Shown: positions 22,402-24,962, counted from the stretch's first letter. The stretch: DNA of 64,000 nt from Corallococcus macrosporus DSM 14697 (GCF_002305895.1 NZ_CP022203.1:2210501-2274500); one strand, 5' to 3'. Notes: generated from the sequence alone by a model not told the origin. A program made the numbers and translations.

Positions 22402-22644
22402 TCACCCCTTCGTTGCCAGGCCCTCGCGCAGCATCTCGTCCACCAGCGAGGCGGCCTTCTCCTCGTCGGTTTCACCCTGGATGCGCAGCGCGACGGACTC
22501 GAAACGCTGGGCATTGCCTACCACCCAGTCGATGTACTCGCCCAGGGACAAGCGCTCCACTCCGAAGGCGATGTCCTGCATTCCCTTCACGATTTGGACG
22601 GCAGTGCCCTGAAGGACACGCCCGTCGCGCATGACGATTACCAT
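22402..22644 (-). CDS. Small conserved-looking partner protein of the amidoligase operon
   Basis: An 80-residue protein (start MVIVMRDGRVLQGT) with a small beta-rich N-terminus, a middle YIDWVVGNAQRFE helix and an acidic C-terminal helix ending GLATKG. ATG 22644 overlaps the end of the cyclotransferase gene upstream and has AGAGGA before it, so it is translationally coupled to it. The compact form and constant position make it a candidate substrate or accessory of the amidoligase/cyclotransferase pair; this is inference. No catalytic motif is visible. Confidence 0.72.
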   Translation of the reverse strand: MVIVMRDGRVLQGTAVQIVKGMQDIAFGVERLSLGEYIDWVVGNAQRFESVALRIQGETDEEKAASLVDEMLREGLATKG

Positions 22645-23027
22645 GGCTTCCTCTCCTGTAGGTGTCGACGCCAGCAACCAGATTCGATGATGGGGCGGCC
22701 GGCCAACCGCCCCTTGGGAAACAGGTATGCCTCGACGCGGCCGGCACCGTCGAGGGCAATGGACGTGCGCTCGTAGAAGCGAGGGTGGCCCTCAAGCCTG
22801 TCGAGCGCCGCCAGCATGAGCGCGTCGACTTCGTACACCTCCCCTTCGACAGCGTGCTTGCCCCTGGCCGCGAGGGCAGGGAAGGGCCCGTAGTCGTAGA
22901 GGCTGAAGCTGGGGTGCGTCCGCGCCGGGCCGATGAGGCGTGCGCCGCGCAGGAGACGGTGGTTGGGTTCGCCAGACAGCAGCGTCCCGTAGACGAAGAC
23001 GCGCGTCGAGGCTGAAGTGCGCTTCAC
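22638..23027 (-). CDS. Gamma-glutamylcyclotransferase-fold protein, AIG2 type
   Basis: A 129-residue protein of the GGCT/AIG2 superfamily. The glycine-rich start of the fold is VFVYGTLLSGEPN (YGTL at about residues 13-16), the middle has PALAARG and VEGEVYEVD, and the candidate catalytic glutamate is in RLEGHPRFYERT (about residue 79). This family releases 5-oxoproline from gamma-glutamyl amines or cleaves related amide bonds. Its GTG start overlaps the stop of the second cyclotransferase by four bases (GTGA). With the amidoligase at 23997 it forms the kind of make/break pair reported from genome comparisons of amidoligase neighbourhoods. Confidence 0.85.
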   Translation of the reverse strand: MKRTSASTRVFVYGTLLSGEPNHRLLRGARLIGPARTHPSFSLYDYGPFPALAARGKHAVEGEVYEVDALMLAALDRLEGHPRFYERTSIALDGAGRVEAYLFPKGRLAGRPIIESGCWRRHLQERKPW

Positions 23028-23464
23028 GCCGCACCTCCCAGGGCGCCCGAGAGGGCGGCGCGGTTGAAGCCCAGGCGCCCGTATGCGTGCCAGAGGACGA
23101 GGAAGTAGCGGGCGGCGGGAGGCCAGGACTCGAAGCCTGTTTCGGGCTGGAGGTACACCAGCGCACGGCGGCGCTGGCCGGCTCTGTCCGTCACCAGCCG
23201 AATGGCGCGCCGGTATGCGAAGGGGTGCCCCTCGAAGGCGTCGAGGGCGCGCAAGTCCTCGGGCGTGAGACGGTACAGCAGCCCTTCGACGTGGGCGCCG
23301 CGCACGCGCTGGAGGCTGGCGACGGCGCCGCCCCAGCGGCGGCTGTGCCCGCCAAACACCAGGGTGTGGCCGGGAAGGGTGGCCCGGGCCTCGACGGTGG
23401 CGCCAGGGCAGCGCGTGCGCATTTGGGCCCTGTCGAGGTTGGAGCCGTAGGCGAAGTAAAGCAT
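23024..23464 (-). CDS. Gamma-glutamylcyclotransferase-like protein
   Basis: A 146-residue member of the same superfamily but a different branch: the signature is LYFAYGSNLDRAQM (YGSNL at residues 6-10), with VEGLLYRLTPEDL and the candidate catalytic glutamate in AFEGHP (about residue 78). The ATG at 23464 follows AGGAGG with a good gap; the upstream in-frame extension is unlikely. It is coupled to the AIG2-type gene downstream. Two cyclotransferase folds in one operon suggest two different gamma-glutamyl-like substrates, or one heteromeric enzyme; neither can be decided from sequence. Confidence 0.87.
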   Translation of the reverse strand: MLYFAYGSNLDRAQMRTRCPGATVEARATLPGHTLVFGGHSRRWGGAVASLQRVRGAHVEGLLYRLTPEDLRALDAFEGHPFAYRRAIRLVTDRAGQRRRALVYLQPETGFESWPPAARYFLVLWHAYGRLGFNRAALSGALGGAA

Positions 23465-23597
23465 GGGGTTCCTCCTGTTGAGGGCGGGTTCGCGGCCCGC
23501 CGTTGTCATTGCCAGCCAGGGCACCCGCAGGGCTCTGGCGCGGTGACTCCATGGTAGGGGCGTACTGGGGTGGGCTCGCCGTCCTGCGAGGCGGGGC

Positions 23598-23801
23598 CTA
23601 CCTCTCGTTGCTGACGCGGGAGGCGTCGCGCCTCTCGTTGAAGAGCTCCACCCTCGCTTGGGCCCGAGCGCGGCGGTGCGCGAGGCGCGTCCCCCGGGCG
23701 TGCGCTTTCCGGGAGAGGCGCCCGCGGTACTTCTCGACGGGGAACTTGCCGTGCCCTGGGCAGCAGCCTCTGTCCTTGCGGGTGATTCCGTATGCTTTCA
23801 T
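23598..23801 (-). CDS. Very basic 67-residue protein with a CC..H motif
   Basis: Starts MKAYGITRKDRGCCPGHGKF and continues with an arginine- and lysine-rich helix (RAHARGTR-like, then RRARAQARVELFNERR). The paired cysteines and histidine near residue 14 could bind a metal or nucleic acid. It has its own copy of the 42-bp element 37 bases before the ATG, so it is very likely transcribed. It stands between the amidoligase and the two cyclotransferases; as a small Lys/Arg-rich protein it could be a target of the system, which is a guess. Confidence 0.62.
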   Translation of the reverse strand: MKAYGITRKDRGCCPGHGKFPVEKYRGRLSRKAHARGTRLAHRRARAQARVELFNERRDASRVSNER

Positions 23802-23837
23802 TGCTGTGTCTCTTGTGCTGGCGAGGGGCACCCGCCC

Positions 23838-23879
23838 TTCGCGAAAGACATACACGCTCTGGTTCGGCATTGAAGCAAG
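23838..23879 (-). promoter_or_regulatory. 42-bp promoter-like element, copy 1
   Basis: On the sense (minus) strand: CTTGCTTCA near the start, AGAGCGTGTATG in the middle, TTTCGCGAA at the end. The start codon it serves is at 23801. All seven copies have the same internal spacing. Confidence 0.68.
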
Positions 23880-23996
23880 CCCTGTTTGAGGCGGCGCGAG
23901 GGGCGCGGGATGGGCGGGCCCGGCATCCCTCCTGGGGAGCCCCCTGGCGCGAGCGCAGGCGGGCGCCAGGGCTCCGTGGCGCCCGCGAAGGCCTCG

Positions 23997-24962
23997 TCAC
24001 GCGGCGGCCAAGGCTTCGGTGGGTGCGCTGCCCCCAGCGCCGCCCTGCGCGCCCTGCGCGCCCTCGCTGCCGGGCGAGCCGTCCTCCCCCCCGCCCGAGC
24101 CGCGCCGGTCGCGGCGCTGGCCCTTCCAGGCGGCGCTGCCCTCCAGCTTCTTGAGGAGGTGGAGGCGGGCCGTCTTGAATTCCTCGCCGATGAGGCCGAG
24201 GTGGAGGAGGAACACCCGGAAGTCGTACTTGGCGGTGGCGGGGTTGAAGTCGCGGCGCTTGCTGGAGGCGGCCTTCGAGGCCAGGGCCCGGGAGGCCAAG
24301 GCCAACACCAGTTGGACGTAGGCCTTCACCTCTCCCGCGTGCACCGAGCCGTTGAAGTACCGGAATTCAATCGTGCCCCGGAAGAAGAGGCTGTTGAGGT
24401 TGAGGCCGTGGTAGCGGCTGGAGTCGTAGCGGCTGGGCATGCTGTTGCGGCGCCCGTACCAAGCCTCATTCACCTCCTGCATGGTGCGCGGGCGCCGGGC
24501 TTCCAGCCGCTGGAGGAAGGCCCCATCGATGGGCTTGCAGAAGCGGCTCAACCGCGCCGCGCTCACCCCGAGGGCCGTCTCCAGGAGGCGCTCCTGTTTG
24601 TGCACCATCTTGACGAGGTTGGTGACGCTCTTGGCGTCGAAGCGGCTGCCGTCGACGTGGATGTGGATTCCGGTGGAGGCGTCGGCGCGGGCGCCGGCCT
24701 CGCGGGCGGCGCGCACCACCTGCTGTAAGGCTTCCAGGTCCTGGTAGGTGAGGATGGGGGAGACGATTTCGCCGCTGTAATCGCCCCCGCTCAGCGAGGC
24801 GTCCGCCACCACCTTCCAGGCGCGGCCCTGGGCGTCCGTTACCTGCATGCCCCGGTAGTCGCCGGAAACGTGCCCGCCCACCGCGCTCTGAATCGCGTGG
24901 GCCAGCTTCTGGCGGCTGGCGCCAACCGTCTCAATCTCAATTCCAAACCGGAGCGTCTTCAT
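23997..24962 (-). CDS. Putative amidoligase (Amidoligase_2 family, glutamine-synthetase-like fold)
   Basis: A 321-residue protein with the marks of the Amidoligase_2 family, which forms amide bonds between a carboxylate and an amine at the cost of ATP. Visible motifs are RFGIEIET (residues 5-12), GEIVSPIL (64-71), [10 protein letters not shown] (96-105) and [11 protein letters not shown] (196-206); these carry the Glu/His/Arg residues expected to hold Mg-ATP. The last 45 residues are a disordered Gly/Arg/Ala-rich tail. ATG 24962 has GAGAGG upstream and a 42-bp element 40 bases away. With two cyclotransferase-fold genes downstream it suggests synthesis and removal of a peptide-like modification. 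Substrate unknown. Confidence 0.87.

Follow-up and report, generated by a model that had tools for sequence, protein, structure and literature searches.

What bond, if any, is made and broken by a phage-associated gene group that combines an amidoligase with two cyclotransferases, and do the small proteins encoded alongside take part? A preliminary description of such a locus in Corallococcus macrosporus DSM 14697 interpreted it as a candidate for an undescribed system, in which a small protein might be tagged or untagged or a small peptide product made. We followed up this proposal computationally, using a 64,000-nucleotide stretch of the genome (NZ_CP022203.1:2210501-2274500; hereafter the window, whose numbering is used throughout) and related loci.

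Gene content and prophage setting

Five leftward open reading frames had been listed between 22402 and 24962, the last three overlapping, and all were confirmed in position, strand and overlap (Table 1). GGCT2 begins with GTG and overlaps GGCT1 by 4 nt, the P80 gene overlaps GGCT2 by 7 nt, and the best start of GGCT1 is the ATG at 23464, preceded by AGGAGG. Pairwise comparison gave dN/dS values of 0.11–0.53 for 5/5 genes. These are real genes, conserved and under purifying selection. The 67-residue Lys/Arg-rich protein carries the CC..H motif ascribed to it, and the two cyclotransferase-fold genes are indeed different, one of GGCT type and one of GGACT type, both in PF06094. The original list was right about these five genes and missed a family of ~100 amino acid proteins (u100) and a repeated promoter-like element. 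None of the cassette proteins matched a defence model (PADLOC 2023), and NCBIfam gave no useful match to them.

Table 1 Features of the cassette region in window coordinates
Feature	Position	Strand	Remarks
Amidoligase (GS-fold family)	23997..24962	(-)	321 aa; PF12224 E 9e-60, phrog_2443 E 2e-80
P67, Lys/Arg-rich	23598..23801	(-)	CCPGH; phrog_5428 E 7e-14; start codon inferred
GGCT1 (human GGCT type)	23024..23464	(-)	PF06094 E 8e-15; YGSN and catalytic Glu
GGCT2 (GGACT/A2LD1, YtfP type)	22638..23027	(-)	PF06094 E 1.5e-27; YGTL and catalytic Glu
P80, small alpha/beta protein	22402..22644	(-)	80 aa; conserved; ends GLATKG
u100 copy 1	25339..25644	(-)	101 aa; other genera have a homologue between amidoligase and GGCT1
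u100 copy 2	26125..26472	(-)	family member
u100 copy 3	26665..27003	(-)	family member
u100 copy 4	28679..29062	(-)	divergent family member
Promoter-like element before P67-GGCT1-GGCT2-P80	23839..23880	(-)	CTTG-N15-AGAGCGTGTATG
Promoter-like element before amidoligase	25003..25044	(-)	52 nt to start codon (script's measure)
Promoter-like element before u100 copy 1	25675..25716	(-)	repeated element
Promoter-like element before u100 copy 2	26504..26545	(-)	repeated element
Promoter-like element before u100 copy 3	27046..27087	(-)	repeated element
Promoter-like element before 74-aa gene (29780-30004)	30036..30077	(-)	repeated element
Promoter-like element before 98-aa gene (30077-30373)	30400..30441	(-)	repeated element

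The cassette occupies the distal end of a prophage of roughly 66 kb. Genes for portal, head, tail sheath, tape measure, baseplate and tail-fibre-like proteins run leftward from ~63 kb to 31 kb of the window, a terminase and an HTH regulator follow farther to the right on the chromosome, with a serine recombinase at ~2.297–2.299 Mb; the rough extent of the prophage follows from these positions. No convincing direct repeat was found that could serve as an attachment site, so the prophage ends are putative. Just past P80, a 124-aa gene in opposite orientation (21982-22356, plus strand) is matched by a relative at the corresponding position of another locus (L030) and may mark the prophage end. 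Genes for a DDE_5 transposase and an HNH-like protein lie in the baseplate region (37532-38893 and 39023-40198); the prophage may be defective. Between the genes for tape measure and tail sheath (47887-49045) lie a gene for a MerR-like regulator and one other small gene, which, from sequence alone, look as if they had been inserted there. A 211-aa gene (27675-28310) contains three tandem 36-nt repeats at 27968-28075.

The same genome contains, near 1.80 Mb, another prophage that is related to this one and has a cassette of its own. There, an opposite-strand transposase-like gene is found between the P67 gene and the amidoligase (L029:3317-4741, ~1.803–1.805 Mb). All four PF06094 genes of the 8.97-Mb genome adjoin its only two PF12224 amidoligases, one pair per cassette.

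The promoter-like element spans ~42 nt and consists of CTTG-N15-AGAGCGTGTATG followed by TTTCGCGA, with seven minus-strand copies between 23.8 and 30.4 kb of the window, mostly ~40–55 nt ahead of a start codon (script's measure). Allowing at most one mismatch, the genome holds 12 copies, 12/12 of them inside the two related prophages. The element also occurs in L029, L030, L040-L042, L032 and L064, and other myxobacterial prophages carry lineage-specific variants (L032, L064, L070). It looks like a prophage-specific promoter. As one copy precedes the amidoligase and another precedes P67-GGCT1-GGCT2-P80, the cassette may comprise two transcription units.

Distribution and described relatives

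We assembled 108 distinct amidoligase loci from GTDB genomes, IMG/VR, phage records and relatives, and counted the 87 with at least 2.5 kb of downstream sequence. A GGCT-fold gene lies within 3 kb downstream of the amidoligase in 82/87 of these loci, which stem from phages as well as from bacteria belonging to several phyla. Most of them were retrieved with the window amidoligase as query and are thus related to it, and many of the prophages are related to one another, so that the counts do not represent independent events. Far from never recurring in company, the genes are found together almost everywhere, and this recurrence is not due to chance. Many Myxococcaceae loci repeat the cassette genes in order. 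In several genera of this family the order is amidoligase, (~100-aa gene), GGCT1, GGCT2 and P80, and gene order is preserved in loci of Myxococcus, Corallococcus, Archangium and further Myxococcota; the four-gene core (amidoligase, GGCT1, GGCT2, P80) is constant across genera, and P67 is usually absent. Searches of phage records with P80, P67 and the tail-fibre-like protein (tblastn) gave no match, so that collection yielded no isolated phage of this lineage.

Outside Myxococcota another layout is common, in which the amidoligase is followed by a ~173-aa protein that ends in DUF5049, then by a class II glutamine amidotransferase and a GGACT. The surroundings also differ between lineages. The cassette follows closely behind a tail-fibre-like gene in Myxococcota and desulfobacterial loci, stands beside the terminase in Heliusvirales, and lies near replication genes in LUZ24, phiEco32 and RIO-1.

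The locus had been put forward as undescribed; amidoligase and AIG2/GGCT cassettes have in fact already been described and named in phages. The pair is documented as a 'peptidoglycan modification cassette' in RIO-1-like phages (PMC5498523), and in LUZ24-like phages (PMC3890496), Arthrobacter cluster AL phages (PMC5513430), Tn6164 (PMC3485107) and prophages of Terrisporobacter and Clostridium (PMC11253131, PMC11318856), while OM43 phages have an amidoligase with a glutamine amidotransferase (PMC10580990). Several of these phage papers, in their passages on the cassette, credit Iyer et al. 2009 with the proposal that the enzymes alter cell-wall peptides and exclude other phages. The peptidoglycan target appears there as a prediction passed from paper to paper (PMC5498523), and the portions of the phage literature cited here report no enzyme assay on such cassettes.

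Our own models confirmed the cassette genes in LUZ24, phiEco32 and RIO-1, the LUZ24 amidoligase weakly (E 0.003). The cassettes of phiEco32, LUZ24, RIO-1 and PSA-HP1 likewise bring Amidoligase_2 together with an AIG2/GGACT-type cyclotransferase in a single group of phage genes. In contrast, the window prophage has no glutamine amidotransferase and gave no match to R2K_3 or, in a search equally empty in control genomes, to PF14395; it has two cyclotransferases instead of one, encodes P80 and u100, and carries the cassette at its tail-fibre end. Ca. Heliusvirales and Tn6164 share an amidoligase (~35–45% identity) followed directly by a GGCT1-type gene; unlike the window, they have a single cyclotransferase, lie near the terminase and encode small proteins of the DUF4314 and zinc-ribbon kinds in place of P80, and an additional, divergent amidoligase-like gene is often present. 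In Heliusvirales and Terrisporobacter phages (L024-L027), such an additional gene lies near the amidoligase, is 24–38% identical to parts of the window enzyme and possibly encodes an inactive partner. Loci from Desulfobacterota, Gammaproteobacteria, Lentisphaerae and others have a ~50% identical amidoligase, and their next gene starts with a domain that aligns to P80; unlike in the window, this domain is fused to DUF5049 and accompanied by GATase_6 and one GGACT.

What is new here is a reduced myxobacterial version of the cassette without the glutamine amidotransferase, with GGCT-like and GGACT-like enzymes, P80, u100 and the promoter-like element.

The small proteins P80, P67 and u100

P80 belongs to no Pfam, NCBIfam or PADLOC family, and we found no earlier description of it in the literature. 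A strict P80 model gave 37 matches in 195 Myxococcota genomes, and 33/37 lie no more than 4 kb from an amidoligase. The exceptions are a match at a contig edge, one with a stop, one on a contig where no amidoligase was matched, and a weak match. The presence of P80 and that of the amidoligase are correlated in these 195 genomes (Fisher p 4e-19, a value that ignores relatedness). P80 aligns to the N-terminal part of the ~173-aa DUF5049 protein (hhalign probability 93.8, 18% identity), each being encoded in its own amidoligase cassettes, and is likely homologous to that N-terminal domain. A P80-like domain was counted in 66/87 amidoligase loci, a partly circular figure as the model was built including the ~173-aa relatives; LUZ24 gp20 fell below counting (E 0.065).

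The predicted model of P80 is a compact beta-beta-alpha-alpha-alpha-beta structure (pLDDT 95), whose last strand includes the residues just before the C-terminus. A fold search of the PDB returned nothing reliable, and the best fold matches among viral models were small unnamed proteins (TM 0.77). The GLATKG end varies in relatives, reading GLTRKA, GLATRK, GLTRRT and others. We considered a C-terminal tag on P80 and rejected it, as the end is not conserved and lies in a strand of the predicted model; the same two features make a Pup-like or other C-terminal tag unlikely. The Pup/PafA system resembles this locus in the general idea of a GS-fold ligase that works with a small protein. The differences are that the window amidoligase matches PF12224 only, and that P80 has a predicted folded structure and a C-terminus that varies.

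P67 was discarded as a core component, as only a minority of the myxobacterial loci have it. The u100 family was found in Myxococcota loci only, where it lies between amidoligase and GGCT1 in some genera and forms four paralogues upstream of the cassette in the window (25339-29062). These copies have diverged, three have their own promoter-like element, and copy number varies between prophages. The predicted u100 model is an alpha/beta protein (pLDDT 87) for which fold searches found only a common alpha/beta sandwich. Judging from position and conservation, our guess is that P80 most likely serves the amidoligase as adaptor or subunit and that u100 is a variable accessory.

Chemistry and candidate function

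The amidoligase matched only Amidoligase_2 (PF12224) in Pfam at E values up to 1, and no Pup-ligase family; a sequence search of the PDB gave only low-complexity or weak tail matches. Across 22 diverse relatives, G7, E9, E11, D54, S56, E65, H100, H102, R183, N188, E199 and R201 are invariant, a pattern that would be expected of an active enzyme in this family. GGCT1 aligns with the structure of human GGCT, keeping the YGSN loop and the catalytic Glu, and GGCT2 aligns with that of human GGACT (A2LD1) and with YtfP, keeping the YGTL loop and the Glu that is catalytic in GGACT. The window genes share fold family, motif and this Glu with the human enzymes and differ in having an amidoligase as neighbour. 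Human GGCT acts on free γ-glutamyl amino acids; GGACT cleaves the γ-glutamyl-ε-lysine isopeptide, and its class acts on γ-glutamyl amines. The pairing of the two types is the best hint of the cassette chemistry; two cyclotransferases of different type would narrow the likely bond to γ-glutamyl amides.

Class II glutamine amidotransferase (PF13522), a component of described cassettes, has five matches in the genome, all outside both prophages. R2K_3 (PF14243), the one ATP-grasp family searched, has a single genome match, far from the prophage. COOH-NH2_lig (PF14395), the family of the second amidoligase in described cassettes, had no match in the genome, in a search that also matched nothing in control genomes. 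As the glutamine amidotransferase and R2K_3 are not in the prophage, the product may differ from that of the described cassettes.

The original view of the amidoligase and two different cyclotransferases as one functional module in a prophage is supported. We favour, with a probability of roughly 0.55, a prophage-borne, reduced variant of the phage amidoligase/GGCT cassette that makes and trims γ-glutamyl amide bonds, probably on envelope peptides. Gene content, order, conservation and motifs can be read from the sequence; the bond chemistry is what the enzyme families would predict. The amidoligase would use ATP to join the γ-carboxyl of glutamate (or a similar group) to an amine. The cyclotransferases would release γ-glutamyl groups as 5-oxoproline, each from a different kind of acceptor (GGCT1 from alpha-amino acids, GGCT2 from side-chain or other amines), so that the bond would be both made and trimmed. 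More tentatively, the acceptor could be a host cell-envelope peptide, and the effect an altered cell surface, in the lysogen or during infection, that might for instance exclude other phages, as proposed for phiEco32.

The product might instead be soluble: the amidoligase would make a γ-glutamyl amine or peptide, with glutamate-cysteine ligase as the model, and the cyclotransferases would recycle it to 5-oxoproline, as an auxiliary metabolic module running a small-molecule γ-glutamyl cycle. The similarity of GGCT1 to human GGCT, its closest counterpart, with free γ-glutamyl amino acids as substrates, agrees with such a cycle, as does the finding that no cassette protein matched a cell-wall-binding family in Pfam or PHROG. 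However, a simple metabolite ligase is not expected to have conserved small protein partners, and in myxobacterial loci the GGACT-type enzyme is always added; we regard the cycle as unlikely. Protein tagging, with P80, P67 or u100 isopeptide-joined to proteins or itself the acceptor and GGCT2 removing the bond, would suit the resemblance of GGCT2 to an enzyme that cleaves γ-glutamyl-ε-lysine and the three small protein families in or beside the cassette. The compact P80 model with its varying C-terminus in a strand, the loss of P67 from most relatives and the restriction of u100 to Myxococcota loci weaken the initial suggestion of a tagged or untagged small protein, and make tagging quite improbable. 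We give little credence to P80 and u100 as dedicated acceptor or carrier proteins of a reversible, phage-encoded γ-glutamyl conjugation system that would extend over phages from several phyla. The amidoligase would then conjugate and GGCT1 and GGCT2 deconjugate, a ubiquitin-like logic carried out by GS-fold and cyclotransferase enzymes; P80 might still be an acceptor through a side chain.

The position close behind a tail-fibre-like gene in Myxococcota and desulfobacterial loci could reflect virion maturation, the cassette modifying tail or other structural proteins. This is very improbable given its placement by the terminase in Heliusvirales and near replication genes in LUZ24, phiEco32 and RIO-1. 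Prophage ends often collect accessory genes, and P67 and u100 do vary, yet a chance gathering with no joint function is scarcely credible against the cyclotransferase found at nearly all amidoligase loci and the constancy of the four-gene core.

Phages have been known since 2009 to carry amidoligase/cyclotransferase cassettes, whose role, in the passages cited here, is a predicted one. The myxobacterial form is small, with one ligase, two cyclotransferases and one conserved small protein, which makes it a practical subject for biochemistry, and P80 is indicated as a partner to bring into any in-vitro work.
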